From a virus, in the IMG/VR virus record IMGVR_UViG_3300042386_001493, positions 22,252 through 86,251 of that record: 64,000 bases of DNA; one strand, given 5' to 3'. The position numbers and the translations under genes were made by a program. The notes under the pieces were generated by a model, which was not told the origin of the DNA, made no database searches, and saw only the letters and a list, made by a program, of their open reading frames with translations. Within the stretch, counting starts at the first letter, position 1; each line of letters starts with the position of its first letter. This document shows positions 34,327 to 54,830 of the stretch, piece by piece.

Positions 34327-34917
34327 CTATTCGTGTTTTTTAATACTTGCTCTAATTTCTTTTTCAAATATATTATATTTAGTAGGAATCCAAAAAGACG
34401 GAGTTGTGTATCTTACGCCTTTAGTTATTTCACGCACACCATGTATGTACATAGTATTTGATGGGAAAAAAACTAATGTTCCAGCCTTGGGCTTAAACTC
34501 TAGTTTGTGATCTGGAAAATATATTTCTCCACCTTCATAGTCATCATTTAAATATATAACAGCCCCATAATCAACTATAAATGCTTCATTTGGATGCCCC
34601 TCTGGATCTTCTCCATCTGCATGTAATGGTTGATACTCTCCTACATCCCATCTTCTTATTCCAGCAGAATTAGTTTCAAGTGGTCTGCCAAAATGAAACT
34701 CAATCTCTTTTTGTACCCTATTAATTGCATTTAATAAAATTTTATGAATCTCTGGTTTTTCTTTATGAAGTTTTTCTGTAACTTTGTCTGGTATGCCAGC
34801 CATTGAATTAGATCCCCAAGAAATTGAATCATCAATTGAAGATAAAATCAAGTCTAAGTCTTCTTTAGAAATAAAGTTTTCTTTAATAACTATATTTTTT
34901 GTTGATCCTATTTTCAT
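34327..34917 (-). CDS. 2-oxoglutarate/Fe(II) oxygenase (prolyl hydroxylase-like)
   Basis: A 196-residue protein. The iron ligands H99, D101 and H159 and the 2-oxoglutarate-binding R169 are in place, with the linking strands YLNDDYEGGEIYF and AGTLVFFPSN. Such enzymes hydroxylate proteins, sugars, nucleobases or small molecules using O2. It lies in a leftward operon with a 52-residue gene and another oxygenase. AGGAG lies 8 nt upstream of the ATG. The substrate is unknown. Confidence 0.88.
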   Translation of the reverse strand: MKIGSTKNIVIKENFISKEDLDLILSSIDDSISWGSNSMAGIPDKVTEKLHKEKPEIHKILLNAINRVQKEIEFHFGRPLETNSAGIRRWDVGEYQPLHADGEDPEGHPNEAFIVDYGAVIYLNDDYEGGEIYFPDHKLEFKPKAGTLVFFPSNTMYIHGVREITKGVRYTTPSFWIPTKYNIFEKEIRASIKKHE

Positions 34918-34928
34918 TATATTTCTCC

Positions 34929-35087
34929 TTAGTTAGGTAATTTATATTGTTCTGCTATTTCTTTTGCTTTGTCAAAATTTGATACATCAATCATTGAATA
35001 TAAAACATAGCACAACCATTGGTAAGATGATTTCTCACAATACCCTTTTGATTGCATTGTTTTAGCAATGTCTTCTATAATTTCCAT
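34929..35087 (-). CDS. Small hypothetical protein (52 aa)
   Basis: It starts in a TAATG overlap with the oxygenase upstream and ends just before the ribosome site of the next gene, so it is part of the operon. It begins MEIIEDIAKTMQSKGYCEKS and contains WLCYVLYSM and a charged C-terminal helix (FDKAKEIAEQY). No family is recognised. Confidence 0.6.
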   Translation of the reverse strand: MEIIEDIAKTMQSKGYCEKSSYQWLCYVLYSMIDVSNFDKAKEIAEQYKLPN

Positions 35088-35608
35088 TATTTATATTCCA
35101 TAAACAAATTAATGGCATATCTAGTTCCTGAAATAACACTATGTGCTACGTGTGCATATGGGTAGTTAGAAGGAAATAAAACCATTGAATTTTTTATTGG
35201 TTTTTCTTTAATTCCAAAATTAACAAACTCTATTTCTCCGCCCTCATAACTATCGTTTAAATAAATAACACAACTTGTTACCCTATTTGATACATGTTTA
35301 GATCCATCATCATAATGCATAACATATTTTTGATTAGGCTCATACTTTAATGCCTCTATTGTAAAGTATGTTAATTCTGGTAAATAATACATATTCCTAT
35401 ATTGTCCTAAAAATTTATCTATTCCGCTTTGTACAATATTAAAAATTTTTTCATACTTTTCTTTATCGTTAAAATATATAACAGAGTTAGACCTATCTTC
35501 TACTTTAACATTTTCTGGCTTAGACCATTCATACTTATTTATTTCTTCTATTAGCATTTCTGGATTTTCTAAAACATCATAATAAAATTCTATACCATTT
35601 TTAGACAT
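35087..35608 (-). CDS. 2-oxoglutarate/Fe(II) oxygenase
   Basis: A 173-residue protein with MHYDDGS (H98, D100), YLNDSYEGGEIEF, LFPSNYPYAHVAH (H153 by spacing) and GTRY (R163). All catalytic residues are present. The start is placed at 35608, where AAAGG lies 7 nt upstream. Longer in-frame starts would run into the preceding gene. It belongs to the same fold family as its neighbours but is well diverged from them. Confidence 0.85.
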   Translation of the reverse strand: MSKNGIEFYYDVLENPEMLIEEINKYEWSKPENVKVEDRSNSVIYFNDKEKYEKIFNIVQSGIDKFLGQYRNMYYLPELTYFTIEALKYEPNQKYVMHYDDGSKHVSNRVTSCVIYLNDSYEGGEIEFVNFGIKEKPIKNSMVLFPSNYPYAHVAHSVISGTRYAINLFMEYK

Positions 35609-36317
35609 TGCTATGCCTTTCGTCTTTTGTATAAAGTTTAATTTTTTTAACTTCATGTTCTCCAATTTTATTACCATATTGATCGGTGGCACTTCTATAA
35701 AAATCAGACCATTTTGGAATTTTATTGTTTTCTAAAATAACATTTCCATAATTTGTTAAATTTTTGTGATATTCATTTATATCGTATGGATTGTTATTTA
35801 AAGTCATTGTAGATTCATTTAAGTTAAAAAGAGATATTGGCATTACTGCCATAAAAGGTTCGTTTGCCTTAAAGGTTATTGAAACATTTGGCTTTGTAAT
35901 TTTCCAAGAAACTGGTATTGGAGAATTCCAAAAACTTGTACTAATAATATTAGTTAGTGGCGATGCTCCGTCAATAACTAGGTTTGGTGGTCCAAAAAAC
36001 AAAAGACTAACATTTGGATCTGTTTTAAAAAACCACCCAATATTAAAAATTAAGGTTGCAGTTCCTCTATTTGTATCAACAAACTCTTGTCCCTCTAAAA
36101 CCTTTATATGATTTCCTTCTTCTGTGTCGTTTCCATCCCATATTACGGTTATATCTTTTGGAAATGAGAATCCCCAACCCATTTGATTGGTTAGGGATAA
36201 TGGAAAACAGCGATATGCATGACCATCAAATGTTTTATCCATCCACTCTCTTTTTACTGGAAGTTGCTCTATCTTTGCTGCTCCCTGAAAAATTTCGTAT
36301 GCTTCAATATTATACAT
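35601..36317 (-). CDS. DUF6065-like protein
   Basis: A 238-residue protein with VKREWMDKTFDGHAYRCFPL, NQMGWGFSFPKDITVIWDG, STSFWNSPIPVSWKI and NEPFMAVMPISL. This pattern fits my recollection of the DUF6065 family (RC.PL..N..GW). No catalytic residues are known. It is encoded directly after one oxygenase and overlaps the next, so it may act in the same modification pathway. Confidence 0.55.
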   Translation of the reverse strand: MYNIEAYEIFQGAAKIEQLPVKREWMDKTFDGHAYRCFPLSLTNQMGWGFSFPKDITVIWDGNDTEEGNHIKVLEGQEFVDTNRGTATLIFNIGWFFKTDPNVSLLFFGPPNLVIDGASPLTNIISTSFWNSPIPVSWKITKPNVSITFKANEPFMAVMPISLFNLNESTMTLNNNPYDINEYHKNLTNYGNVILENNKIPKWSDFYRSATDQYGNKIGEHEVKKIKLYTKDERHSNV

Positions 36318-36983
36318 TTATGCTGTTGTTCTATTTTTTAAAATTTCATTTGCTCCGTGTGCTCGATCATTATAATCAAACATTGTCACTGCTGAATATT
36401 TTAATCCTTCTTCTACTGGAAGCGCTGCATGTGAATAAATAAAGGTAGATGGAAACAAAACAATATCTCCTTCTTCTGGTTGATAAGTATAATTTAGGTA
36501 TGGGAAAAATAATCCACCACCAACAAAGTTATCATTTAAATACATGACTGTTGAAACTGTACAAATATAACTAAAACCATGATCTGAGTGAACTCCAAAA
36601 TGGTGCCCTGGTCCATACTTTACAAAATTAACTGCTTCTTGATATCTCATTTGAATGTTATACATAGAACAATAATGGCTTAAGCATGATTGCAACCTAA
36701 CATCGATATCTTCATAAATATTTTTTAAATCTGAATTGGCTACAGATGGATTATTGGTTATATCATATTTTCTAACTTTAAAGTCTACACAATCTCGGTA
36801 ATCTTTCATTGTTTGATAGTCGCCTACTTGTGCTTCAGACCACTTAAAAAATGTATCTTTATCTTTATTATTATCGATTACACTTTCTAATCTTTCTACC
36901 AAGTTTAATGATTTATTTAAACTATTTTTGTAAATAAAAACACCATTTGCTGGATTTAAAATTTCAATATTTGTTGCTTCCAT
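36318..36983 (-). CDS. 2-oxoglutarate/Fe(II) oxygenase with Lys at the cosubstrate position
   Basis: A 221-residue protein with HHFGVHSDHG (H132, D134), YLNDNFVGGGLFF, VLFPSTFIYSHAALPV (H185) and GLKYSAVTMFD. K195 stands where the 2-oxoglutarate-binding arginine is expected by spacing. Lysine can fill this role in some family members (known), so the enzyme may still be active. A TATAAT lies ~25 nt upstream. It is adjacent to the DUF6065-like gene. Confidence 0.82.
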   Translation of the reverse strand: MEATNIEILNPANGVFIYKNSLNKSLNLVERLESVIDNNKDKDTFFKWSEAQVGDYQTMKDYRDCVDFKVRKYDITNNPSVANSDLKNIYEDIDVRLQSCLSHYCSMYNIQMRYQEAVNFVKYGPGHHFGVHSDHGFSYICTVSTVMYLNDNFVGGGLFFPYLNYTYQPEEGDIVLFPSTFIYSHAALPVEEGLKYSAVTMFDYNDRAHGANEILKNRTTA

Positions 36984-37043
36984 AGCAGACCCCTTTTCGT
37001 TATTTTAATTATACACCATATAGAGTTTTATACGCTACTATGG

Positions 37044-37049
37044 TAAAAT
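37044..37049 (+). promoter_or_regulatory. Leaderless-type -10 (TAAAAT)
   Basis: TAAAAT is followed by 6 nt and then the ATG at 37056, with TGG just before it (extended -10). No ribosome site is present. No clear -35. Confidence 0.5.
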
Positions 37050-37055
37050 ATATAG

Positions 37056-37652
37056 ATGATCAATAAAAAATCTATAATCCCGTCTGGATATTATGGCAAC
37101 TCTAAAGAAAATATAGTAATTATTAATAATTTTATATCTCATGATGATATAAAAAAAATAAAAATATTTTGCTCAGAATTAAATACCTTTATGTCTATTC
37201 CTGGAGACAATTGGGATAATCGTGTTTGCAATAACTCAATCCTTAAAGAAATTGCTCCTGATATTGAACAAATATTATCTACTTATCAAAAAAAACATAA
37301 AAAAATTATAGAAGATTTTTTTAGTATTGAATTAAAAGATAATGTGCCAAGCGTTGTTATATGGAGACAGGGTGATCTTCAACCACCACATGCAGATAAA
37401 GAAAATCTTGATGGAAGCCCAAACCTATATCCTGAAAACGACATTGCTTCCTTGTTCTATCTTAATAATGAGTATATTGGCGGAGAAATTTATTTTCCAA
37501 CACAAGGATTACAATTTAAATTAAATGCTGGAGATGCGGTATTTTTTCCAGGAGATGTTAACTATCAACATGGTGTTACTGAGGTAACTGAAGGAAAAAG
37601 ATTTACCTGTCCAGCATTTTGGAATGTTATAAAAAATAATAAAAATATTTAA
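37056..37652 (+). CDS. 2-oxoglutarate/Fe(II) oxygenase
   Basis: A 198-residue protein with PPHADKEN (H112, D114), YLNNEYIGGEIYF, FFPGDVNYQHGV (H172) and GKRF (R182). It resembles the oxygenase at 34327..34917 (DGSPN after the HAD motif versus EGHPN) more than the other two. It is the only one of the four on the plus strand and appears to have a leaderless message. Confidence 0.88.
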   Translation: MINKKSIIPSGYYGNSKENIVIINNFISHDDIKKIKIFCSELNTFMSIPGDNWDNRVCNNSILKEIAPDIEQILSTYQKKHKKIIEDFFSIELKDNVPSVVIWRQGDLQPPHADKENLDGSPNLYPENDIASLFYLNNEYIGGEIYFPTQGLQFKLNAGDAVFFPGDVNYQHGVTEVTEGKRFTCPAFWNVIKNNKNI

Positions 37653-42918: not shown

Positions 42919-43076
42919 TTTAGTTTATCCTTTCGTTAGATAACTTTCTTTATACCTGCAATTCTAGCAGGGGGGTCTGACAATTTAGGGGGGTTATTTG
43001 CTAGGCTCACTGTGATTTGTCTCACATTTACTTGCTAGGCTCACGCCCCTAAATAATTCTATATTTAATTTTCTAT
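42919..43076 (-). promoter_or_regulatory. Structured 5' leader of the leftward hub operon
   Basis: About 158 nt from the predicted start to the first ATG. It holds a 13-bp direct repeat TTGCTAGGCTCAC (42998..43010 and 43032..43044) on either side of the palindrome TGTGATTTGTCTCACA (43011..43026). An outer arm pair TTTAGGGG / CCCCTAAA and a small hairpin (CCTGC / GCAGG) near the ATG are also present. It could fold as an RNA regulator or bind a Crp-like protein as DNA. Confidence 0.6.
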
Positions 43077-43082
43077 AATGGA

Positions 43083-43111
43083 ATTATAGCAGGGATAAGC
43101 CCAAAAGTCAA
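43083..43111 (-). promoter_or_regulatory. Strong leftward promoter
   Basis: TTGACT (43106..43111), 17-nt spacer, TGC-TATAAT (43083..43088) on the minus strand: nearly ideal sigma70-type. It drives the four-gene operon at 42353..42918. Confidence 0.85.
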
Positions 43112-43265
43112 CACGACACGCCGTTAATAACACGCATGTAATTAGTGATATGCACCACACGACATATCGGACATATCGGACATGCAGCCCGGCTCGGTCG
43201 GGTGTGTCTGAGAGGGTTATCCACATGACGTAGATCACATACCTATTTCACGCTCAAGTTATCCA

Positions 43266-43343
43266 CATGACCTACATCACAAGACACAATGTCCGTTTTG
43301 TACTACTTACTGGTGAGTAAATGTCAGTGGTCGCTGTTATACT
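43266..43343 (+). promoter_or_regulatory. Crp-like site plus promoter
   Basis: CATGA-CCTACA-TCACA (43266..43281; a second weaker copy at 43224..43239) precedes a -10 TATACT (43338..43343) with a poor -35 (GAGTAA, 43315..43320) and a spacer starting ATGTCAG. TGTCCGTTTTGTAC lies between (43290..43303). Confidence 0.55.
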
Positions 43344-43391
43344 TCTAGTATAAAGAAAGTTAAATAAAGGTTATTTAACAGAAAGGACAAA

Positions 43392-43499
43392 ATGAAAGAT
43401 TTTGTTAAAAAGTTAGAATTAGAAAACTATCTTGATGAAAGTCAAGATGAGTTAAGTCTAAGACTAGATGAGTTAATCGCTCTTGGTTCATATAACTAA
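43392..43499 (+). CDS. Micropeptide (35 aa)
   Basis: MKDFVKKLELENYLDESQDE then LSLRLDELIALGSYN, acidic and helical. GAAAGGA lies 6 nt before the ATG. First gene of the first rightward operon. Unknown function. Confidence 0.6.
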   Translation: MKDFVKKLELENYLDESQDELSLRLDELIALGSYN

Positions 43500-43603
43500 A
43501 TATAAAAAAAATCCTAGTGAGCCTTACTAAAAAAGTAAGCAAATAATCTAGGTCAAGGAAAAAGATAAACACAAGGTTTATCGCTTAAAGAAAGGAATTC
43601 AAA

Positions 43604-43777
43604 ATGAATTCACTAAAAAATAAAGTGTGTAAGCATACACCTAATAAAAATGCTATCTCTATCCATCAGGATATGAAATATACTTTCTGTGAGAATTGCG
43701 AAAGCAATATCTACTCTCACTATATTGAGGACAATGACTTAATGTCTTATTGGTCTTCATGGAAGGTAGGTAAATAA
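43604..43777 (+). CDS. Small zinc-ribbon protein (57 aa)
   Basis: VCKHTPN then FCENCESNIYSH give a C-H / C-x2-C pattern. AAAGGA lies ~8 nt upstream. The 104 nt before it are A+T-rich and hold no visible gene. Adjacent to another CxxC microprotein. Confidence 0.65.
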   Translation: MNSLKNKVCKHTPNKNAISIHQDMKYTFCENCESNIYSHYIEDNDLMSYWSSWKVGK

Positions 43778-43882
43778 ATGTTTTCTACAATAAAACTAAA
43801 TTGTCGCATATGTGATGAACCTATTTATAGCGTTCATTTTGATACGCAAGACATAATCACTTGCTCAAATTGTTGGGAGTAA
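43778..43882 (+). CDS. Small zinc-ribbon protein (34 aa)
   Basis: Two CxxC pairs: NCRICDE and TCSNCWE, a minimal rubredoxin-like zinc knuckle. The ATG directly follows the TAA of the previous gene. Confidence 0.65.
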   Translation: MFSTIKLNCRICDEPIYSVHFDTQDIITCSNCWE

Positions 43883-43883
43883 A

Positions 43884-44006
43884 ATGCTTAACGAAATAAA
43901 AAATAAAATAATTCGTATTCAAGAATTGCGCCGTAGTAATGCGGCAACACCAATTCCAAATAAAAAAAAATATAGTAGAAAGGTAAAACATAAAAATGCA
44001 AAATGA
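43884..44006 (+). CDS. Basic micropeptide (40 aa)
   Basis: MLNEIKNKIIRIQELRRSNA followed by a lysine-rich tail (KKKYSRKVKHKNAK). It could bind nucleic acid. One base after the previous stop. Confidence 0.5.
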   Translation: MLNEIKNKIIRIQELRRSNAATPIPNKKKYSRKVKHKNAK

Positions 44007-44106
44007 AAATATAACTAAGCAATTTGAAAACGCAGTTGAATTAACTAATTTAACCGAAGCGCAATTAGAAATTGTTAAACAAATTTTATTAGATAAATTT
44101 AACTAA
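43996..44106 (+). CDS. Micropeptide (36 aa)
   Basis: MQNENITKQFENAVELTNLT then EAQLEIVKQILLDKFN, acidic and helical. It overlaps the previous gene by 11 nt, with AAAGG upstream. Last gene before the hairpin. Confidence 0.5.
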   Translation: MQNENITKQFENAVELTNLTEAQLEIVKQILLDKFN

Positions 44107-44113
44107 TAAAAAA

Positions 44114-44142
44114 TTTTTGCAGAAATAAAAACTCTGCAAAAA
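44114..44142. terminator. Operon-end hairpin
   Basis: A perfect 10-bp stem TTTTTGCAGA / TCTGCAAAAA with loop AATAAAAAC. T or A runs on both flanks allow termination in either direction. Followed by AACCCGG, as after two similar hairpins. Confidence 0.8.
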
Positions 44143-44205
44143 ACCCGGCTCCCCTGGCGTGTCGTCCACAGCCTGTGGATAAACCTGTGGATAACTTACG
44201 TACGA

Positions 44206-44291
44206 TGTGATTTTTCTCACACAGTTTGAGCGTCTTATTATTTGAGATTACTGGCTAGTAGGTTGTAAATGTCTGCTAATTCTGCTAAACT
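44206..44291 (+). promoter_or_regulatory. Crp-like palindrome and promoter
   Basis: TGTGATTTTTCTCACA (44206..44221) lies upstream of TTGTAA (44263..44268), a 17-nt spacer beginning ATGTCTG, and TAAACT (44286..44291). The palindrome is centred about 84 nt before the predicted start. Confidence 0.7.
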
Positions 44292-44333
44292 TACAGAGTA
44301 AGAAAATAACAAAAAAGAAAGTAGGTAGCAAAA

Positions 44334-44531
44334 ATGGCTAACCTTTACACAATAGAAAACCTTTTACAAGGTAAACAATATCGCTCTAATTCTCTTAATG
44401 GAGAAATTATTAGCGGTGAAAAAACCGACCATTGGTTTGGTAATGATAGAGAAGCGTATCGTGTTTTAATTCGCACACCGCATTCTTATACAGACCACTA
44501 TCGCATAATTGCGGTTAAGGTAGGTGAATAA
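44334..44531 (+). CDS. Small hypothetical protein (65 aa)
   Basis: Beta-rich with a basic part: YTIENLLQGKQYRSNSLNGE, AYRVLIRTPHSYTDHYRII. GAAAGTAGGTAGC lies upstream. Unknown function; first gene of its operon. Confidence 0.65.
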   Translation: MANLYTIENLLQGKQYRSNSLNGEIISGEKTDHWFGNDREAYRVLIRTPHSYTDHYRIIAVKVGE

Positions 44532-44645
44532 ATGATAAAACTTTGTGGTATTTGTGGTATCAATTCCGCTCATGTATCTAAGCATGGCATTCCCCCAATG
44601 TGTGATGAATGTATTGCTAAGAATTGGAGGAGGGTCAATGTCTGA
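44532..44645 (+). CDS. Zinc-ribbon microprotein (37 aa)
   Basis: MIKLCGICGINS and PPMCDECIAKNW give two CxxC knuckles. It starts next to the previous stop and overlaps the next gene by 8 nt. Confidence 0.65.
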   Translation: MIKLCGICGINSAHVSKHGIPPMCDECIAKNWRRVNV

Positions 44646-44745
44646 TTATCTTAACTCTCTAGATGAGGTCTATACCGACCTAGTAGCCGAGTATGGCGAG
44701 GAGATAACCCTTGCTTATCATCAGGCTAATATAAAGGAGATGTGA
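44638..44745 (+). CDS. Micropeptide (35 aa)
   Basis: MSDYLNSLDEVYTDLVAEYG then EEITLAYHQANIKEM, acidic and helical. GGAGGAGGG lies 4 nt before this ATG; an earlier in-frame GTG is rejected. Its stop codon lies inside the Crp-like palindrome that follows. Confidence 0.6.
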   Translation: MSDYLNSLDEVYTDLVAEYGEEITLAYHQANIKEM

Positions 44746-44806
44746 GGCAACTCACACTCCAACACACCCCCTATAATTGGAAAATGTCAGCGATAACTGA
44801 TAGAAT
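44741..44806 (+). promoter_or_regulatory. Crp-like palindrome and promoter
   Basis: TGTGAGGCAACTCACA (44741..44756) is a perfect TGTGA-N6-TCACA. It is followed by TTGGAA (44777..44782), an 18-nt spacer containing ATGTCAG and TAGAAT (44801..44806). Confidence 0.7.
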
Positions 44807-44839
44807 AATAACTCAAACAAAAACGAAAGGTGGTCAGAA

Positions 44840-45025
44840 ATGACTTATACTGTAAAACTAGAAACCTTTAATGGTGCTGTAAAAAATATCAACCTACCTT
44901 CTCAGGGTGCGGTTGCTCAATTCATAAACACTTACCCAAACCAATTACCTGTTGGCGTATCTGTAAAAATTGCTTGTGATGTGTTAGGTGTTCGTGGCAC
45001 ACTTAGGGGAAAGGCGTTAGCATAA
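44840..45025 (+). CDS. Small protein, paralogue of 42441..42626
   Basis: A 61-residue protein with YTVKLETFNGAVKNI, FINTYPNQLPVGVSVKI and GVRGTLRGK. It aligns along its length with the minus-strand gene 2.2 kb away. GAAAGG-TGG lies ~10 nt upstream. Function unknown. Confidence 0.65.
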   Translation: MTYTVKLETFNGAVKNINLPSQGAVAQFINTYPNQLPVGVSVKIACDVLGVRGTLRGKALA

Positions 45026-45174
45026 TGATAAGTAGCGTAATGACTTTTAAATGCGACCAATGCAATAATGCAGGTTATATCTTTTGGGGAGATAACCTTG
45101 ACTATGATGTAGAAAAATGCCAATGCGAAAATTTTGCCCTTGGAACTTTATTTACTAGCGGGGAGGCTGACTAA
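45025..45174 (+). CDS. Zinc-ribbon microprotein (49 aa)
   Basis: TFKCDQCNNAGYIF and EKCQCENF: CxxC plus CxC. TAATG overlaps at both ends with its neighbours show tight coupling. Confidence 0.65.
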   Translation: MISSVMTFKCDQCNNAGYIFWGDNLDYDVEKCQCENFALGTLFTSGEAD

Positions 45175-45383
45175 TGAAAACAATTAAACACTACATAACA
45201 CTAGAAACTGAAATTCTTAACGAAAACGATATAACTGCTAAGGCTCTTTTATCTTTACCTAAAGAAACACAACAAATTAGACTAACTGAATTAGCCTATA
45301 TTGCTTTATCTGAAACAATAGAAAAAGAGTTAATAAAGTTAAATAAAAACAATTCTTTTGCTGTCTTAAAGTTGGTTAAATAA
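45174..45383 (+). CDS. Small helical protein (69 aa)
   Basis: HYITLETEILNENDITAKAL, then LTELAYIALSETIEKELIKL. Acidic and helical, no family. Coupled on both sides. Confidence 0.6.
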   Translation: MKTIKHYITLETEILNENDITAKALLSLPKETQQIRLTELAYIALSETIEKELIKLNKNNSFAVLKLVK

Positions 45384-45595
45384 TGATGACTAGAAAATCT
45401 TATATCCAAACCGCAAACATCTTAAAAGGATTTGTAGATGAAATTCCACAAAATACTTATGAGGATTTAGTTCAAGAATTTGCTGAGTGGTTTAAATCAG
45501 ATAATGAAAACTTTGACTACGCAAGATTTGAAAAGGCTTGCGGAATTGATGAAATTGGTTTAATTCCTGTTGGTTCTGAAATGTGGAAGGGGTAA
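45383..45595 (+). CDS. Small hypothetical protein (70 aa)
   Basis: It contains YEDLVQEFAEWFKSDNENFDY and FEKACGIDEIGLIPVGSEMW. It resembles short helical actinophage proteins of unknown role. Confidence 0.6.
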   Translation: MMTRKSYIQTANILKGFVDEIPQNTYEDLVQEFAEWFKSDNENFDYARFEKACGIDEIGLIPVGSEMWKG

Positions 45596-45599
45596 AACA

Positions 45600-45746
45600 A
45601 TGATAACTAATTTAGATTTAATTGCAATAATTATTGCGCTAAGTGGTTCAATGTTGGTAATGTTTTTATTTTATAAACAAAATGTTGCACAACAAAAAGA
45701 AATTCGCAGATTGCGAAATGAATTGCGTAAAGCATTTAAAGTATAA
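45600..45746 (+). CDS. Small membrane protein (48 aa)
   Basis: A transmembrane helix (LIAIIIALSGSMLVMFLFY) followed by a basic cytosolic helix (KEIRRLRNELRKAFKV). Last gene of its operon, before the hairpin. Confidence 0.6.
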   Translation: MITNLDLIAIIIALSGSMLVMFLFYKQNVAQQKEIRRLRNELRKAFKV

Positions 45747-45755
45747 ATAAAAATT

Positions 45756-45780
45756 CCTGAGCAAGAATAAAAACTGCTCA
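45756..45780 (+). terminator. Recurring operon-end hairpin, copy 1
   Basis: CCTGAGCAAGA...AAACTGCTCA, stem TGAGCA / TGCTCA with an 11-nt loop. The same element recurs at 48144, 48993 and 50828. No U-run directly follows. Role as terminator or processing signal is inferred. Confidence 0.6.
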
Positions 45781-45840
45781 AACATTTGTTCGAAAAACCC
45801 GGCGCAGGCGGCGTGTCGCAATCTATACATGACCTTTACG

Positions 45841-45915
45841 TGTGGTTAAGATCACACCCTAAATTCCCCAGATTAAGGCGTCTAATTGGATTTTGTCAGT
45901 TGTATCTGCTAGGAT
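45841..45915 (+). promoter_or_regulatory. Crp-like palindrome and promoter
   Basis: TGTGG-TTAAGA-TCACA (45841..45856), then TTGGAT (45886..45891), an 18-nt spacer with TTGTCAG and TAGGAT (45910..45915). Confidence 0.65.
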
Positions 45916-45940
45916 AAAGATATAAAGAAAGAAGGAACAA

Positions 45941-46105
45941 ATGGGTAAAGTAAAAGAAGCACTAATGGATATATTAGAGCATGACCTATGCTATGGCTAT
46001 GGTTGGTTATATCAAGGAAATAATGTAGACTTTGATAGTGAGGTTTGCGAGTGTAATCCTTACGCTATATCTGCTGATGAAATAATGGAATGGAAAGGAC
46101 TATAA
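45941..46105 (+). CDS. Small hypothetical protein (54 aa)
   Basis: Contains LCYGYGWLYQGNNVDF and VCECNPYAISADEIMEW. GAAGGA lies 6 nt upstream. It is coupled to the next gene by TAATG. Confidence 0.6.
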   Translation: MGKVKEALMDILEHDLCYGYGWLYQGNNVDFDSEVCECNPYAISADEIMEWKGL

Positions 46106-46320
46106 TGGATAAAGAATATACTTATTCACTTACTACTTCATATGATGGAGAGTTAATAAATACCCTGCGAGTTAGCGATATGCTAGAAGCAGTTAGGGCT
46201 TGGGATAAATGCGTGGACTATGGCTTTGCTAAAGAATACGCAACCTATAACTTGTCTGACCCAACAGGTAAGATGTATACTAAAACCTTCTACACTAACG
46301 GAGAGGTCGTAATTAAATAA
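46105..46320 (+). CDS. Small hypothetical protein (71 aa)
   Basis: MDKEYTYSLTTSYDGELINT, then MLEAVRAWDKCVDYGFAKEY. The ATG at 46105 in the TAATG overlap is preferred to one five codons upstream. Small alpha/beta protein of unknown role. Confidence 0.6.
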   Translation: MDKEYTYSLTTSYDGELINTLRVSDMLEAVRAWDKCVDYGFAKEYATYNLSDPTGKMYTKTFYTNGEVVIK

Positions 46321-46616
46321 TGGGAAGCATAACAGCAATAGGTTTAGCAGATACAACGCTAGACCTAGAAACACAATTAAAGTATCACCTGCAAGGTAAT
46401 CATTATCCACCAATACCAACAGTAATGGTTCAGCCATGTATTGAGGCTATTGACGCATACTATGAGGAGGATTATTCTCGTAGAATAGAATTACCAGTTG
46501 TAGATGGATTTCAAATTAGTTGGAAAGGCAACACTTGGACTACCGCCAGCGCATTGGTATCACACGCACACCTAGAGTGGTTCATTGAGCCAGCAGATGA
46601 GGACTTATATGAGTAA
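46320..46616 (+). CDS. Conserved small protein (98 aa)
   Basis: It contains YHLQGNHYPPIPTVMVQPCI and ATTASALVSHAHLEWF-like segments (WTTASALVSHAHLEWF). This is a familiar actinophage hypothetical pattern. Coupled start. Confidence 0.65.
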   Translation: MGSITAIGLADTTLDLETQLKYHLQGNHYPPIPTVMVQPCIEAIDAYYEEDYSRRIELPVVDGFQISWKGNTWTTASALVSHAHLEWFIEPADEDLYE

Positions 46617-46701
46617 AGACTTGCAAGATAAGTTAGACGCAGTTGCTAAAATTTTAGAACCTATCCTATGGGAAACATTAGCAGAAATTGAGGCTGAATA
46701 A
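46609..46701 (+). CDS. Micropeptide (30 aa)
   Basis: MSKDLQDKLDAVAKILEPIL then WETLAEIEAE, acidic and helical. It overlaps the previous gene by 8 nt and abuts the next. Confidence 0.5.
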   Translation: MSKDLQDKLDAVAKILEPILWETLAEIEAE

Positions 46702-46935
46702 ATGGCTGCTACAATGATGAACATGGAATTAAAGAAAATAGATATTCTCAAACCTTCTATGATGATGGTTGGAGATTTTATTAGATACAATGATGAGGTA
46801 GTTGAAATACTTTCTCTTGAATCTGATCCTGACCAATACTTTTGGTATGCAGAATATCAAAATGAGTTTGGTGAAAAAGATACCGCTCAGTTAGTTGATA
46901 ATGAATACTATGATTGGTATATTCACTTAGAATAA
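46702..46935 (+). CDS. Small SH3-like protein (77 aa)
   Basis: VGDFIRYNDEVVEILSLESD and FWYAEYQNEFGEKDTAQLVD suggest a short beta-barrel. Last gene before a hairpin. Unknown function. Confidence 0.55.
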   Translation: MAATMMNMELKKIDILKPSMMMVGDFIRYNDEVVEILSLESDPDQYFWYAEYQNEFGEKDTAQLVDNEYYDWYIHLE

Positions 46936-46961
46936 TTTTTCTGCACTTCCCCGCAGAAAAA
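46936..46961. terminator. Operon-end hairpin
   Basis: A perfect 9-bp stem TTTTTCTGC / GCAGAAAAA with loop ACTTCCCC, followed by ACCCGG. Comparable to 44114..44142. Confidence 0.75.
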
Positions 46962-46978
46962 CCCGGCCCTGCCCGATT

Positions 46979-47032
46979 TGTCCGTTTTGTACCTTACGTA
47001 CACTTGATATTTTCTCCACATTCTGCTAAAAT
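46979..47032 (+). promoter_or_regulatory. Leaderless promoter with TGTCCG motif
   Basis: TGTCCGTTTTGTACC (46979..46993), then TTGATA (47004..47009), a 17-nt spacer TTTTCTCC..., and TAAAAT (47027..47032). Six nt later is the ATG at 47039. Confidence 0.65.
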
Positions 47033-47038
47033 ATTTAT

Positions 47039-47767
47039 ATGACAACATCACAATTAAAAAGATCATTTGACAGAAAGGTTGCTAATCTTGTCACAAAAAA
47101 TGGAAAGCAAGCCGCAATTGCAAACACGTTCGGTCTTCCCGCTGGAAAGAATTATTCATGCCCTGGTGCCACTAGTGTTTGTGAAAGTGTTTGCTACGCA
47201 GGAAAACTTGAAAAACTCTACAAAGCCGTAAAGGCAAACCTAATACATAATTGGGAATTATTAAAAGACGCTGACGAATCGACTATGATTGATCTATTGC
47301 AGAATATGATTAATGATTTTAAAAAAGATTGTGAAAAGAAAAATGCGTCATTGTTATTTCGTATTCATTGGGACGGTGATTTCTTTAATGACACGTACAC
47401 CAAAGCATGGAAACAAATCATCCTTAACAATACAGATATAAAATTCTGGGTATATACAAGGGTACAGCCTGCAGCGGTAATGCTAAAGGATATTCCTAAT
47501 CTATCCTTATACTATTCAACAGACAGCGAGAATAAGCAGATAGGCGTTAGTTTAAAGAAAGATCATGGGGTACGCCTTGCATACCTTGCACAGAATTTTG
47601 CAATAGGTCAGGCAGATATGAAGGAGTTATTTAATCGACCTGGTGCTAAGTGCCCTGAAAACCTAAAAGCCATTCCACTTATCTCAAGCGCTGGCTCGGC
47701 TTGCGTATCTTGCGGTTTGTGTGTATACTCTAAGAGCGACATAGTCTTTTCATCATCTAAGAAATAA
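47039..47767 (+). CDS. GP88-type phage protein
   Basis: A 242-residue protein that matches the pattern of the phage 'gene product 88' family: NTFGLPAGKNYSCPGATSVC, CYAGKLEKLY, RIHWDGDFFN and a Cys-rich end (CVSCGLCVYSKSDIVF). Nine or so cysteines suggest a metal or Fe-S centre. The biochemical role is unknown. The message appears leaderless. It is followed by a 21-residue membrane peptide. Confidence 0.8.
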   Translation: MTTSQLKRSFDRKVANLVTKNGKQAAIANTFGLPAGKNYSCPGATSVCESVCYAGKLEKLYKAVKANLIHNWELLKDADESTMIDLLQNMINDFKKDCEKKNASLLFRIHWDGDFFNDTYTKAWKQIILNNTDIKFWVYTRVQPAAVMLKDIPNLSLYYSTDSENKQIGVSLKKDHGVRLAYLAQNFAIGQADMKELFNRPGAKCPENLKAIPLISSAGSACVSCGLCVYSKSDIVFSSSKK

Positions 47768-47774
47768 GGGGCAT

Positions 47775-47840
47775 ATGGAGATACTAATAGTATTATCACT
47801 TATATTCTTATATATCCTATTCTCAGGCATGGGGCATTAG
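47775..47840 (+). CDS. Membrane micropeptide (21 aa)
   Basis: MEILIVLSLIFLYILFSGMG then H: one short transmembrane helix. AAGGGG lies 4 nt before the ATG. Its stop lies 2 bp before a Crp-like palindrome. Small, so chance cannot be excluded. Confidence 0.45.
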   Translation: MEILIVLSLIFLYILFSGMGH

Positions 47841-47841
47841 T

Positions 47842-47916
47842 GTGATGTATCTCACATCTCAATATATGAGATTATCCATGAGATAATTTGTATTTTTGAC
47901 CAAAAAATGTTAGACT
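47842..47916 (+). promoter_or_regulatory. Crp-like palindrome and promoter
   Basis: TGTGATGTATCTCACA (47842..47857), then TTGTAT (47888..47893), 17 nt and TAGACT (47911..47916). Confidence 0.7.
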
Positions 47917-47951
47917 TATACAGTAAGCAAAAACCAACAAGAAGGAGAACC

Positions 47952-48122
47952 ATGTCCGTATCAAACGCAACATACAAGGTAGGCGACACCTACACATCAC
48001 AAAAATCAAAGGTAGTAGGAACTATTACCGAAATTGTGCCAACTAACAAAAACACAGTTAGAGTTAAGTTAGATGTTAATGGCTCAACTCGCTGGACAAC
48101 TTGGACAGCAAAGAACGCTTAA
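47952..48122 (+). CDS. Small KOW/SH3-like protein (56 aa)
   Basis: MSVSNATYKVGDTYTSQKSK, VVGTITEIVPTNKNTVRVKL, WTTWTAKNA. The start with AAGGAGA upstream is preferred to an upstream in-frame TTG. Paralogous to 48712..48882. Confidence 0.65.
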   Translation: MSVSNATYKVGDTYTSQKSKVVGTITEIVPTNKNTVRVKLDVNGSTRWTTWTAKNA

Positions 48123-48143
48123 TCTTAGCCTAGTGGCTAAAGT

Positions 48144-48168
48144 CCTGAGCATGACGAGAAACTGCTCA
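48144..48168 (+). terminator. Recurring operon-end hairpin, copy 2
   Basis: CCTGAGCATGA...AAACTGCTCA (stem 48146..48151 / 48163..48168). A second small hairpin TTAGCC-TAGT-GGCTAA (48125..48140) lies just before. Confidence 0.6.
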
Positions 48169-48207
48169 ACTCAAAAGCCCCACTAACAGAAATGGAAACC
48201 CATCACA

Positions 48208-48630
48208 ATGGCAAGAAGCAAACCCATCAGCGTAAAAATCGCTACTGCTAAGGTTATTACAGCCTTAGAAAATAGATTAGCAGAGTTAGAGGCTAACTAT
48301 AAAACACAAGACGAGAACGAAGCAAAGTTCCAAGTCGCAATAGAGGCTTGGAAAAAAGAACTATTTGCTTTTGCTATCGCTAATGTTTCTAAGGCAGAAA
48401 ACCTACGCACTAACTATCGTCAATGGTCAAGCAACCTTAATGTTGATTTTGATTTAACAGTTAAGGAAGGCGAGTTCCCTGCTGAGCCTCAAAGAGAGTT
48501 TGAGCAACTCCATGCTCATACCTATCGTGAGCAGAAAGAGGAAATGGAAAACGCTATCCGTATCCTCAAAATGACCGACGAGGAAACAGTTAATACTAGC
48601 ACATATAACGCTATCGCAAGATACTTGTAA
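48208..48630 (+). CDS. Helical hypothetical protein (140 aa)
   Basis: Almost wholly helical and charged: TALENRLAELEANYKTQDEN, then EQLHAHTYREQKEEMENAIR. Coiled-coil like; no family. GGAAA lies ~10 nt before the ATG. No promoter of its own is evident, so it may be read from 47.9 kb. Confidence 0.65.
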   Translation: MARSKPISVKIATAKVITALENRLAELEANYKTQDENEAKFQVAIEAWKKELFAFAIANVSKAENLRTNYRQWSSNLNVDFDLTVKEGEFPAEPQREFEQLHAHTYREQKEEMENAIRILKMTDEETVNTSTYNAIARYL

Positions 48631-48633
48631 TAG

Positions 48634-48673
48634 TTTGGGGGTATTTGACTATGCCCCCAAAATATGTTAGACT
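48634..48673 (+). promoter_or_regulatory. Hairpin with -35 box as loop, plus promoter
   Basis: An 11-bp stem (48634..48644 / 48651..48661; TTTGGGGG / CCCCCAAA at the base) has exactly TTGACT (48645..48650) as its loop. With TAGACT (48668..48673) 17 nt on, this hexamer is also the -35 box of the next operon. Confidence 0.65.
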
Positions 48674-48711
48674 AAATAAGTAAGCAACCACCACAACAGA
48701 AAAGGAAAATC

Positions 48712-48882
48712 ATGACACTAGGCGGATACACATACCAACTAGGTGATTTATTCACCACTAGTAAAACAGGCGTAACTGGTAGAATTGTAAAGTTCTCACC
48801 ACTTAACTCTAAACTTACTAGAGTATCACTACAATTAGCAAACGGCTCTCGTCGTCTTGCTATGGTAAGCACAACTAAATAA
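48712..48882 (+). CDS. Small KOW/SH3-like protein (56 aa), paralogue
   Basis: YTYQLGDLFTTSKTGVTGRI, FSPLNSKLTRVSLQLANGSR. It aligns along its length with 47952..48122. AAGGAAAA lies upstream. The region after it to 48990 holds a TTGGGG/CCCCAA inverted repeat but no gene. Confidence 0.6.
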   Translation: MTLGGYTYQLGDLFTTSKTGVTGRIVKFSPLNSKLTRVSLQLANGSRRLAMVSTTK

Positions 48883-48992
48883 ATAATCTTGGGGTAGGTT
48901 TGTAACGTGTAATCACTTAAGTCCCTGCCCCAACCATATTTATCTCTGATAAGCACTTGGCTTAATTGCTAAGTTATTCCTGAGATAAGACT

Positions 48993-49018
48993 CCTGAGCA
49001 TGAGTTCTAAACTGCTCA
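48993..49018 (+). terminator. Recurring operon-end hairpin, copy 3
   Basis: CCTGAGCATGA...AAACTGCTCA (stem 48995..49000 / 49013..49018), followed by a T-containing stretch (TCTTTTAATT). Confidence 0.6.
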
Positions 49019-49051
49019 TCTTTTAATTGCCCCCGCAAAAATCCGGGGCAG

Positions 49052-49128
49052 CGTGATTTAAATCACATCTCATTATGTGAGACTAATTAAGAACTGAACT
49101 TGCATTTCCACAATCTTGATGATATTAT
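49052..49128 (+). promoter_or_regulatory. Crp-like palindrome and promoter
   Basis: CGTGATTTAAATCACA (49052..49067), then TTGCAT (49100..49105), 17 nt and TATTAT (49123..49128). Confidence 0.6.
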
Positions 49129-49153
49129 TGTATTAACAGAAAAGGAACCCCTA

Positions 49154-49621
49154 ATGAGCGAAGTAATGACACAGGAGCAGTTATCTGTTCCATACAATCC
49201 TAACCTACTTGTTACGTACAAGTATGTTCCAGAAACATATGCAGCACCTGAAAGCCCTACATTCATGACTGATAAGGTTACTCAGATTGAATGGGACCTA
49301 CATAACGGTCGTACTACTCAAAAACAATTAGCAGAGAGACGCTTAGATATAAGTTGGTTAGAGGAACAAATTGTAGAATGGTATGACCCTAACTATACTA
49401 AAGAAGAAGTGTTGCAAGCAATCATAGAACACTTTGGGTTTAATCCAACTAAGCAAATTGAAGTTCAAGGTACCGTATCGTTCAGCGGAACGATTAATAT
49501 TCCACTGTCAGAGATTGAAGACTTTGACCTTAGCAATGTAACAATTGATGTTGATCTAAGTTCATATGAGTATGACGCAGATCTTAATGTGGACGAAGTA
49601 TCTTTGGAGGACCACTACTAA
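49154..49621 (+). CDS. Hypothetical protein (155 aa)
   Basis: MSEVMTQEQLSVPYNPNLLV, a helical middle (LAERRLDISWLEEQIVEWYD) and a beta-rich acidic end with a VQGTVSFSGTINIPLS stretch. The start after AAAGGAA is used; an earlier in-frame start lies at the promoter. A familiar actinophage pattern without known role. Confidence 0.65.
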   Translation: MSEVMTQEQLSVPYNPNLLVTYKYVPETYAAPESPTFMTDKVTQIEWDLHNGRTTQKQLAERRLDISWLEEQIVEWYDPNYTKEEVLQAIIEHFGFNPTKQIEVQGTVSFSGTINIPLSEIEDFDLSNVTIDVDLSSYEYDADLNVDEVSLEDHY

Positions 49622-49696
49622 ATTTGATAGGGGGCTATCAACGTCGTGGGCCAAGACGTAAAACTGGCCCTAACAAAAACCCGGCCCCGCCCTAAA

Positions 49697-49775
49697 TGTC
49701 CGATTTGTACCAATTAAGAAGATTAAACCATTTTCCCCAATCCTAGTTGACATTGTCAGCCATGACTGCTAAACT
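49697..49775 (+). promoter_or_regulatory. TGTCCG motif and consensus promoter
   Basis: TGTCCGATTTGTACC (49697..49711), then TTGACA (49747..49752), a 17-nt spacer with TTGTCAG and TAAACT (49770..49775). The stretch 49622..49801 holds no gene. Confidence 0.7.
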
Positions 49776-49801
49776 TAGTTAAAACAACCGAAAGGATAAA
49801 A

Positions 49802-50818
49802 ATGGCTCATGATTTAGAAACTCAAAATGGCGTAGCAAGTTTTGCATCATTTAGAGAGCCTGCATGGCACAATCTTGGTACTGTATTTGATACTGAGAAA
49901 AATACAAGTGAAATGCTTGTTGCTGCTAATCTTAATAATTGGAATGTTAGACTAGAGGATTTAGAAATCCCATCTAGTTTAGTATCTGACAAACAATATC
50001 AATATGTTGTTCGTACAAATCCTACTGATAAATCTCAAACTGATGTTTTGGGAATTGTTGGGCAGCGTTATGTTCCACTACAAAATGAGGATTTATTTGC
50101 CTTTGGCGATAACATTCTTGATGGTGGTGGGCGTTGGGAAACCGCTGGCTCAATTAGTGGTGGGCGTGTAGTATTTGGCTCATTAGCATTAGAGCGTGAA
50201 ACTGTATTAGACCCTAATGGCGTTGCTGATGTTGTAAAGACTTATTTACTCATCAACACTTCACATGATGGTTCAATCGCTATTCAAGCAAGCATAACAC
50301 CTGTTCGTGTTGTGTGTGCTAATACTCTTAATGTTGCACTAAACCGCACTAAGAAAAAAGATGGCGTAAAGCAATCTTTCAAAATCCGTCATACCCAAAC
50401 TGCTGAGGGCAAAATTGCTATTGCTCGTCAGGCACTAGGCATGGCTAACGCTTACATGACTGAGTTCGATAAGATGGCTCATGCTATGATAGCAAAAGAA
50501 ATCTCAGCACAAGATTTCAATAACATTATTCTTGCTGCTTATCCTAAGCCTGAATTAGATACTAAGGGCGCAGTAAAGAAATGGGAAAACAAGGTAGATA
50601 TGATTAACGATATCTATACTGGTGAATTTAACGGAATGATTGCTGGTAATGCGTGGGGTGCGTTCAATGCGCTAACTGAGCGTTTAGACTGGTATCGTTC
50701 ATCTCGTAGTGCAAATGGCGAAAGCATGTTTGCTGCTGCTTCTGGATTTGACCCTGCTACCAATGCAGAAAAAAATCGTTTGCTAAGTATTGTTCAAAAT
50801 ACTTTACAAATAGTTTAA
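49802..50818 (+). CDS. DUF932 phage/plasmid-like protein
   Basis: A 338-residue protein with PAWHNLGTVFD near the N-terminus, GIVGQRYVPLQNEDLFAFGD, GGRVVFGSLAL, TPVRVVCANTLNVALN and FKIRHTQTAEGKI. These are hallmarks of the DUF932 / phage-plasmid-like family (TIGR03299-type). The role is unknown; such genes are common in phages and plasmids near replication functions. Its promoter is one of the best in this region. Confidence 0.85.
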   Translation: MAHDLETQNGVASFASFREPAWHNLGTVFDTEKNTSEMLVAANLNNWNVRLEDLEIPSSLVSDKQYQYVVRTNPTDKSQTDVLGIVGQRYVPLQNEDLFAFGDNILDGGGRWETAGSISGGRVVFGSLALERETVLDPNGVADVVKTYLLINTSHDGSIAIQASITPVRVVCANTLNVALNRTKKKDGVKQSFKIRHTQTAEGKIAIARQALGMANAYMTEFDKMAHAMIAKEISAQDFNNIILAAYPKPELDTKGAVKKWENKVDMINDIYTGEFNGMIAGNAWGAFNALTERLDWYRSSRSANGESMFAAASGFDPATNAEKNRLLSIVQNTLQIV

Positions 50819-50827
50819 CAATAAAAT

Positions 50828-50852
50828 CCTGAGCAAGATTTAAAACTGCTCA
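50828..50852 (+). terminator. Recurring operon-end hairpin, copy 4
   Basis: CCTGAGCAAGA...AAACTGCTCA (stem 50830..50835 / 50847..50852), 5 bp before the tRNA gene. It could separate the DUF932 message from the tRNA. Confidence 0.6.
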
Positions 50853-50857
50853 TCATT

Positions 50858-50931
50858 GGTTCTGTAGCATAGTTGGTTAATGCGCTACCCTGTCACGGTA
50901 GAGATCGTGGGTTCAAGTCCCATCAGAGCCG
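50858..50931 (+). tRNA. tRNA-Asp (GTC)
   Basis: A complete cloverleaf: acceptor GGTTCTG / CAGAGCC, anticodon stem CTACC / GGTAG with loop CTGTCAC (anticodon GTC at 50892..50894), T arm with GTTCAAGTC. No 3' CCA is encoded. It lacks a promoter of its own and is probably processed from the DUF932 transcript. Confidence 0.95.
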
Positions 50932-50984
50932 CCCCGGGTTTTCTTTCTTTAAATAATAACACATGATTGCTTCATTAAGAAAGA

Positions 50985-51013
50985 TTGACTTTTTCCCCAG
51001 TTTCCTGTAAAAT
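50985..51013 (+). promoter_or_regulatory. Leaderless promoter
   Basis: TTGACT (50985..50990), spacer TTTTCCCCAG..., TAAAAT (51008..51013), 6 nt, ATG at 51020. Confidence 0.75.
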
Positions 51014-51019
51014 ATTAAC

Positions 51020-51178
51020 ATGACCACAATTAACAAACCACTAACCATAGACGGCCTAATAATGAATATATATGAGGACAACTCTGAACATTTTGACTTT
51101 ATATATAGCATGAATAATGGAGACTGCGATTGTTGTCTTCACTTTGCAATGAATTTGATTAAGGAGTATGATAGATAA
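51020..51178 (+). CDS. Small Cys-containing protein (52 aa)
   Basis: MTTINKPLTIDGLIMNIYED, then GDCDCCLHFAMNLI. The CDCCxH cluster may bind metal. Leaderless start; TAATG coupling to the next gene. Confidence 0.6.
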   Translation: MTTINKPLTIDGLIMNIYEDNSEHFDFIYSMNNGDCDCCLHFAMNLIKEYDR

Positions 51179-51354
51179 TGTTAGGTTATACATATAAAGA
51201 TATACAGGCCTTTGGTAATAGTTTAACTTGGGCTATTGATACCGCCAAAAACCAGGGGGATGAACAAAACTATAAACAATTACTAATAGTATGGGACTTC
51301 TTTGAGGGACTACTAGCAGAAGGTTACATAGATGAGAACACATACTATGGATAA
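51178..51354 (+). CDS. Small hypothetical protein (58 aa)
   Basis: MLGYTYKDIQAFGNSLTWAI, NYKQLLIVWDFFEGLLAEGY. Helical. Coupled on both sides. Confidence 0.6.
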   Translation: MLGYTYKDIQAFGNSLTWAIDTAKNQGDEQNYKQLLIVWDFFEGLLAEGYIDENTYYG

Positions 51355-51499
51355 TGGCGAGATCTTAGATAAGATTATAGAACTTATAAACACAGACGGA
51401 GAGATCATGTCTGATGAAGAGGTTGTTAATAATATTAGGGGACTTCTTGAGACTAACCCTCAAACCTATTGGGGAGCAAGCCAAAGCAGTGTGATGTAG
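51347..51499 (+). CDS. Small hypothetical protein (50 aa)
   Basis: MDNGEILDKIIELINTDGEI, then SDEEVVNNIRGLLETNPQTY. It overlaps the upstream gene by 8 nt. Its TAG stop lies inside the Crp-like site that follows. Confidence 0.55.
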   Translation: MDNGEILDKIIELINTDGEIMSDEEVVNNIRGLLETNPQTYWGASQSSVM

Positions 51500-51544
51500 A
51501 TCACCTTACGATATCTTGTAATTTTTCCCAGTTCGTAGTAAAAT
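51490..51544 (+). promoter_or_regulatory. Crp-like palindrome and promoter
   Basis: TGTGATGTAGATCACC (51490..51505), TTGTAA (51516..51521), spacer TTTTTCCCAG..., TAAAAT (51539..51544). Confidence 0.65.
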
Positions 51545-54016: not shown

Positions 54017-54101
54017 GAAAAACCCGGTATCAATTACCAAACCTTCAAACCTTATTTACGAAAAAGACATTAAGAACCCAATTCAAAAAATCCCAGAAAG
54101 T

Positions 54102-54142
54102 TTGACAAACCTTCAAACCTTTATATTTAAAGATAGTATAAT
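54102..54142 (+). promoter_or_regulatory. AGGTTTG-type repeats and leaderless -10
   Basis: ACAAACCTTCAAACCT (about 54105..54120; another pair at about 54038..54053) precedes TATAAT (54137..54142), which is 6 nt before the ATG at 54149. The usual -35 is missing, so the repeat may act in its place. Confidence 0.5.
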
Positions 54143-54148
54143 ATATAT

Positions 54149-54310
54149 ATGAGTCCTCGTAACTACTATAGTAAGAATCGTATTGATAGATATAATATGA
54201 GTCCTTCTTTTGTATCTACCGCTTCAGGTATGGCAGAGAAAAAGGTAGAGAGGTTTGTTACTAGGGTATTACGATCCATCTTTAAGTCCCGCCGTCGCAA
54301 TAAATCATAG
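54149..54310 (+). CDS. Basic small protein (53 aa)
   Basis: MSPRNYYSKNRIDRYNMSPS, then KKVERFVTRVLRSIFKSRRR. Strongly basic and Ser/Tyr-containing, possibly nucleic-acid binding. Leaderless. Confidence 0.55.
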   Translation: MSPRNYYSKNRIDRYNMSPSFVSTASGMAEKKVERFVTRVLRSIFKSRRRNKS

Positions 54311-54830
54311 TACTAATAGACATTACGAAGCGGGAAAAAAAATCCCAGAAATATACAGATTATTCCCATAATTACCAAACCTTTCTAGATTTTTTCTGGG
54401 GTTTTTCCTACATTTTCCTACATTTTCTGGGCATTTTTATAGGGGTTTTTTACTTGACAAACCATGGTATTGGGGGTATAATGCATGCCGCATATGGGGA
54501 TAGGAAGGTTTGGGATAGGGAGGTTTGGCCGCCAGAGGATTACGACGCCATCTATAAAATCGCCCAATCCCCCACTATGCTCCACTTTCCTCCATTCTAA
54601 CCCAATCTAAAAAATGTCAGTAAGGATTATCTTTCATACCAAACCTCCAAACCACCTATTTAAAAGCCTTCCAAGCCCTATTTGCGACGGTATTTAACCA
54701 TCTCGCTGGTTCCCAAACCAGACATATCTGGCTATCTGAGATATGGGGATAGGGGGATATAAGGTTTGTTATTACACTGGGGATTATGATACTCCTTCTG
54801 TACCCGCCAAAAATAGGATACAATAAGTTT
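54311..54830 (+). other. Gene-free region with consensus promoter and repeats
   Basis: It contains a textbook promoter, TTGACA (54454..54459), 17 nt, TATAAT (54477..54482), with transcription predicted near 54489. It also has a tandem TTCCTACATTT, about eight CAAACC/GGTTTG words and a repeated ATATGGGGATAGG. A 38-codon frame (ATG at about 54493) is low in complexity and unconvincing. A noncoding RNA of up to ~340 nt is possible. Confidence 0.5.

Follow-up and report, generated by a model that had tools for sequence, protein, structure and literature searches.

The question raised by this locus is which protein reads a set of palindromes that lie in front of many promoters of an uncultured phage. 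The window, that is, the whole stretch of 64,000 nucleotides that was analysed, comprises positions 22252-86251 of the 86,251-base virus record IMGVR_UViG_3300042386_001493 from IMG/VR. An earlier note, made from these letters alone, had described nine palindromes of the form TGTGA-N6-TCACA between 43.0 and 51.6 kb as a Crp/GlxR-type operator set of the rightward operons. Judged from sequence, a Crp/GlxR-type operator set is well supported, and the palindromes are probably operators for the single Crp/GlxR protein of the host, borrowed by the phage as a class-I activator. All nine palindromes were found in their places, except that the one given at 47842 occupies 47841-47856. They are listed below with their -10 hexamers; distances run from the palindrome centre to the first base of the -10 hexamer.

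43011-43026, minus strand: perfect operator TGTGAGACAAATCACA, upstream of a leftward promoter whose -10 begins 52 bp from the centre
42961-42966, minus strand: -10 hexamer TAGAAT of the leftward promoter (score 12.9), with TGTCAG 16 bp upstream
43224-43239, plus strand: two-mismatch operator CATGACGTAGATCACA, upstream member of a tandem pair, 106 bp from the -10
43266-43281, plus strand: two-mismatch operator CATGACCTACATCACA, downstream member of the tandem pair, 64 bp from the -10 TATACT (43338-43343)
44206-44221, plus strand: perfect operator TGTGATTTTTCTCACA, 72 bp from the -10 TAAACT (44286-44291)
44741-44756, plus strand: perfect operator TGTGAGGCAACTCACA, 52 bp from the -10 TAGAAT (44801-44806)
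45841-45856, plus strand: one-mismatch operator TGTGGTTAAGATCACA, 61 bp from the -10 TAGGAT (45910-45915)
47841-47856, plus strand: perfect operator TGTGATGTATCTCACA, 62 bp from the -10 TAGACT (47911-47916)
49052-49067, plus strand: one-mismatch operator CGTGATTTAAATCACA, 63 bp from the -10 TATTAT (49123-49128)
51490-51505, plus strand: one-mismatch operator TGTGATGTAGATCACC, 41 bp from the -10 TAAAAT (51539-51544), with the -35 box TTGTAA

An exact motif count gave four perfect and three one-mismatch palindromes in the 43.0-51.6 kb block. In 2000 dinucleotide shuffles of this stretch, the mean was 0.008 for perfect copies and 0.30 for copies with no or one mismatch, and none of the shuffles reached the observed seven; the motif is thus commoner here than in shuffled sequence, the comparison on which the earlier note had staked its proposal. 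The remaining one-mismatch matches in the window, at 14813 and 33312, correspond to the chance rate outside the block, and the first 22 kb of the record contain one such copy. A count over the whole window with up to two mismatches showed no excess (31 copies against 37 expected) and was uninformative as a test. The two tandem operators are spaced by 42 bp, which is four helical turns. Most of the sites lie in intergenic gaps, as had been described, but those at 44741 and 51490 overlap the final bases of the preceding open reading frame. Rightward promoters are indeed served by the set, but the site at 43011 belongs to the leftward promoter, with its -10 at 42966-42961.

Related phages were represented by 80 viral loci fetched with the DUF932 protein encoded at 49802-50818, and the motif was counted over 1.42 Mb, consisting of these loci, the window and its own record. 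This sequence holds 251 perfect and 296 one-mismatch copies, compared with at most 8 perfect copies for each of 29 permuted half-sites, and spacers other than 6 bp between the half-sites occur in 0-6 copies. The inner consensus T-N-T-A-N-A was obtained from 107 perfect copies after removal of near-identical ones, giving the full motif TGTGATnTAnATCACA; with its exact spacer of 6 bp, this is identical to the consensus published for GlxR, TGTGANNTANNTCACA (PMC4254451). Palindrome, spacer and inner TA are shared with the GlxR regulon of Corynebacterium glutamicum and the Crp (Rv3676) regulon of Mycobacterium tuberculosis (PMC4254451), whose operators lie in cell promoters, whereas those described here lie in phage promoters. 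The 43 perfect copies found in nine long relatives (87-117 kb) are all confined to a single block of about 10 kb per genome, and the reversed control gave none. Among named phages, the Streptomyces phages of the Riptide/NootNoot group encode the proteins nearest to DUF932 (53% identity). Streptomyces phage Riptide (132 kb) has no TGTGA-N6-TCACA palindrome and was rejected as a further carrier; the operator set is a feature of the metagenomic clade analysed here. An IMG/VR-wide scan for TGTGATNTANATCACA was also made, and no support was drawn from it, since the pattern is too short to separate signal from chance.

The position of the operators relative to the promoters was analysed using a -10 matrix that was derived, with no position prior, from the sequence 3' of the sites. 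In the window and the relatives, the distances to the -10 cluster at 41, 52, 61-64, 71-74 and 82 bp, with few between, and their best period is 10-10.5 bp. When one value was taken per downstream-gene family (30 families), the Rayleigh R was 0.66, a value reached by none of 20000 jitters of up to 5 bp; for the window sites alone (52, 64, 72, 52, 61, 62, 63 and 41 bp, in the order of the operators listed above) R was 0.84 (p 0.0004). The largest downstream-gene family includes 31 sites at 71/72 bp, 13 at 61/62 bp and 3 at 51 bp, which argues that whole turns were gained or lost and the helix face was kept. Leftward sites of the relatives have the same register as the rightward ones (52 bp in 26, 53 bp in 5, and 62 bp also found). 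On the assumption that +1 lies 7 nt beyond the -10, the inferred centres are at about -53.5, -64.5, -74.5 and -84.5. The earlier statement that the sites are centred 54-85 nt before the start therefore holds for the transcription start (about 53-85 bp before +1), but not for the start codon, which lies 76-120 nt away. The sites are phased with the polymerase site and do not overlap it, an arrangement that fits the need of a class-I activator, and a phased class-I architecture of these predicted promoters is well supported.

In E. coli class-I CRP promoters (lac type), the activator site lies upstream of the -35 box, on one helix face, and offsets a weak -35. The phage promoters are alike in the upstream site and the helix face and, for those of the window and the DUF932 alleles, in the weak -35 box, and differ in the additional use of a position near -53.5 and in an extra TGTCAG element in the spacer. 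Poor -35 boxes accompany the operator in all eight window promoters that carry one (CCTAAA, GAGTAA, TTGTAA, TGGAAA, TGGATT, TTGTAT, TTGCAT and TTGTAA), whereas TTGATA, TTGACT, TTGACA and TTGACT are found in the four window promoters without one:

47004-47032, plus strand: operator-less promoter TTGATA-N17-TAAAAT, in front of the Gp88 gene
48645-48673, plus strand: operator-less promoter TTGACT-N17-TAGACT, whose orthologues in relatives also lack the site and keep TTGACT
49747-49775, plus strand: operator-less promoter TTGACA-N17-TAAACT, in front of the DUF932 gene
50985-51013, plus strand: operator-less promoter TTGACT-N17-TAAAAT

Among distinct alleles of the DUF932 promoter, TTGACA is present in 18 of the 21 without the site and in 2 of the 24 with it (p 1e-6). 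In this promoter family the operator is apparently traded against a strong -35 box, which is a signature of class-I activation.

No gene with a Crp-type helix-turn-helix was found in the whole 86-kb phage record, which may itself be incomplete; the earlier note had seen none in its part of the sequence. A close DUF932 protein (81% identity) is encoded on a single genome contig, which belongs to the metagenome-assembled genome Actinomycetota bacterium WB8_2xO_007 and also carries one perfect operator; no close DUF932 copy was detected in the remaining 295 genomes of its order. Genomes of this order, hereafter the linked order, are small (mostly 1.0-1.5 Mb), and the G+C content was 45% in one stretch that was read. 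These features would fit 'Ca. Nanopelagicales', an order of freshwater bacteria for which phages are known (PMC10202952), and the phage clade would then infect uncultured actinobacteria, probably of freshwater. The phage tRNA-Asp, also compared with the linked order, proved similar and not diagnostic of the host. A Crp-type gene is present in 129 of 151 genomes of the linked order, as a single copy in all but one, and adjoins nth (endonuclease III). The best PDB match of its product is M. tuberculosis Crp (3d0s, E 2e-77), and the recognition helix GASRETVNKALADFA is identical in the two proteins. A host regulator of the Crp family, as proposed in the earlier note, would thus be available in the linked order, nearly always as one orthologue per genome, but the cAMP sensing attributed to it is not borne out (see below).

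Indirect support for a cellular protein that binds the operator came from the same 151 genomes. TGTGA-N6-TCACA occurs there in 22 copies (20 genomes), as against 202 copies (108 genomes) of TGTGA-N9-TCACA, the spacer of 9 having been chosen as control because its relation to the reading frame is that of spacer 6. The operator is thus avoided about tenfold relative to this control. The reversed pattern, which forms similar hairpins, showed no such drop (50 copies at spacer 6 and 33 at spacer 9; Fisher p ~1e-18). Since neither the spacer-9 nor the reversed patterns are depleted, it is the operator that is kept out, and not half-sites or hairpins. This avoidance is best explained by a resident cellular protein predicted to bind TGTGA-N6-TCACA, and it fits the Crp orthologue; it does not bear directly on which bacterium this phage infects.

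In the proposed mechanism, a host Crp dimer at the operator would touch RNA polymerase from upstream, probably through the C-terminal domain of the alpha subunit. The contact would rescue promoters with a good, often extended, -10 but a weak -35 box, and placement of the operator at whole helical turns from a fixed register would present the same DNA face each time, whereas the operator-less promoters would rely on a consensus -35 instead. The operator promoters most likely fire early, because only the host RNA polymerase and a pre-existing host protein would be needed; the gene layout points the same way. Host Crp is the likely activator. GlxR itself is mostly an activator. We infer activation rather than another effect, actual binding by the protein and the identity of the host.

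Several observations weigh against this reading. With +1 set 7 nt past the -10, the phage register is displaced upstream by about 3 bp relative to the class-I positions known from E. coli (-61.5, -71.5 and -82.5). Presence or absence of the site among the DUF932 alleles mostly tracks phage phylogeny, so that few independent events are represented, and over all deduplicated promoters the -35 difference is small (p 0.034 with a free spacer, 0.51 with a fixed one), partly because this set includes false promoters. The host link consists of one 4.7-kb phage contig in one metagenome-assembled genome, possibly a binning error. No consensus operator occurs in 800 kb of one linked-order genome, hence a regulon of the host's own would use weaker sites or none; a search of the same 800 kb with a phage-derived matrix and unbiased palindrome counts yielded no intergenic sites and no enriched palindrome. 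Finally, a search that covered class III adenylate cyclase (PF00211) detected it in none of 31 genomes of the genus and none of 151 of the order, the C. glutamicum control being positive, and GlxR of C. glutamicum binds DNA at 8.3 uM without cAMP and at 87 nM with it, so that the apo form is about 100-fold weaker (PMC4254451).

The linked order also differs from the setting of the GlxR and Rv3676 regulons in that no class III cyclase was found in it and its genomes are nearly without the consensus operator. Since the cyclase was not found, regulation by cAMP in the linked order is doubtful, and with it the suggestion in the earlier note that cAMP sensing ties phage expression to host carbon state; no relevant work was found in the literature on cAMP in Nanopelagicales. 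Given the missing class III cyclase and the weak binding of apo-GlxR, either another ligand or supply is used or the Crp is independent of cAMP, and full-consensus operators in the phage might, speculatively, offset weak binding.

Activation of these promoters by host Crp has to be compared with three other explanations. The one that survives best, which is nevertheless unlikely, is that a phage-encoded activator of an unrecognised family acts from the same register. For most of the block's small genes no Pfam match was obtained, and one of them could encode an unrecognised DNA-binding protein; the linked order itself shows no consensus operators; and the TGTCAG spacer element is absent from the host sequence that was scanned, a sign that factors specific to the phage may be at work. 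Such a protein would, however, have to recognise exactly the Crp/GlxR consensus, down to the inner TA and the flanking T/A, and the record encodes no helix-turn-helix of this type; moreover, the spacer-specific avoidance in the linked order implies that a protein of the cell binds this operator. A still less probable explanation is repression, in which host Crp or a phage repressor would hold the promoters down. Proteins of the Crp family are able to activate or repress, and a precedent exists in phage T1, where cAMP-CRP represses pir (also dam and recE) in a manner tied to cAMP and lysogeny (PMC6737242). Control of phage promoters by host Crp is common to T1 and the phage described here, but in the latter about eight promoters would probably be activated and no evidence for cAMP was obtained. 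The sites lie upstream of the -35 box, phased and clear of the -10 and -35, and accompany weak -35 boxes, whereas repressor sites typically cover the promoter and need no phasing. Least probable, by a small margin, is a decoy that titrates host Crp, or a part of a replication origin, since neither would need one operator per promoter in phase with the -10 or a spread over a block of about 10 kb, even if the consensus strength of the sites, the DnaA boxes adjoining some of them and the avoidance of such sites in the linked order would suit it.

Host Crp acting on a phage promoter is already known from single cases. Here, by contrast, class-I Crp activation appears to underlie most early promoters of an entire phage clade, and this use can be read from sequence alone through helical phasing. 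The promoters offer a testable entry into gene regulation in phages of very small, mostly uncultured actinobacteria, and they raise the question of why the linked bacteria retain Crp without a recognisable adenylate cyclase and yet avoid the consensus operator about tenfold. A tentative and rather unlikely reading would be that the host Crp lost its cAMP supply and nearly all consensus operators and that the cell selected against such operators, the phage clade using the consensus operator as its own promoter signal, so that the host regulator would have become largely a dedicated activator of early phage genes. Should the host assignment be confirmed, these operators would provide strong ligands, already at hand, for the study of its Crp.

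Further elements were observed in and around the block. A second conserved element, TGTC(A/T)G, starts 16 bp ahead of the -10, just within the spacer, in the majority of promoters in the block, for example at those with -10 at 42966 (minus strand), 43338, 44801 and 45910 and at 49747. About 80% of promoters with an operator and 30% of those without contain it; combined with an extended -10 it reaches about 250 copies per Mb in the relatives and none in 800 kb of a linked host genome. It is possibly the target of a phage factor. Boxes with the DnaA consensus occur in two pairs:

43217-43225 and 43259-43267, plus strand: two DnaA-box consensus sequences TTATCCACA, abutting the tandem operators
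44174-44182 and 44186-44194, minus strand: two DnaA-box consensus sequences TTATCCACA, upstream of the 44206 operator

In the relatives, TTATCCACA is found 273 times, compared with a mean of 19 (maximum 79) for permuted versions, and a quarter of the copies are at most 21 bp away from a palindrome. Among the phage genes are those for DNA polymerase III alpha, a DnaB-like helicase, a primase and RecA, and the boxes may indicate an origin of replication at which host DnaA is used.

Direct repeats TTGCTAGGCTCA at 42998 and 43032 flank the 43011 operator, and several relatives have extra copies. The sequence TGTCCG(T/A)TTTG is repeated upstream of promoters at 43290, 46979 and 49697, with 172 copies in the relatives. 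An inverted repeat TCCTGAGCA ... TGCTCA, possibly a terminator or RNA element, lies 3' of genes at 45755, 48143, 48992 and 50827, and TCCTGAGCA occurs 229 times in the relatives. Outside the block, several genes for 2OG-Fe(II) oxygenase-like proteins are clustered at 34327-37652, and a long stretch at 54030-54780 has few open reading frames and contains repeated AAACCTTCAAACC and GGTTTG words.

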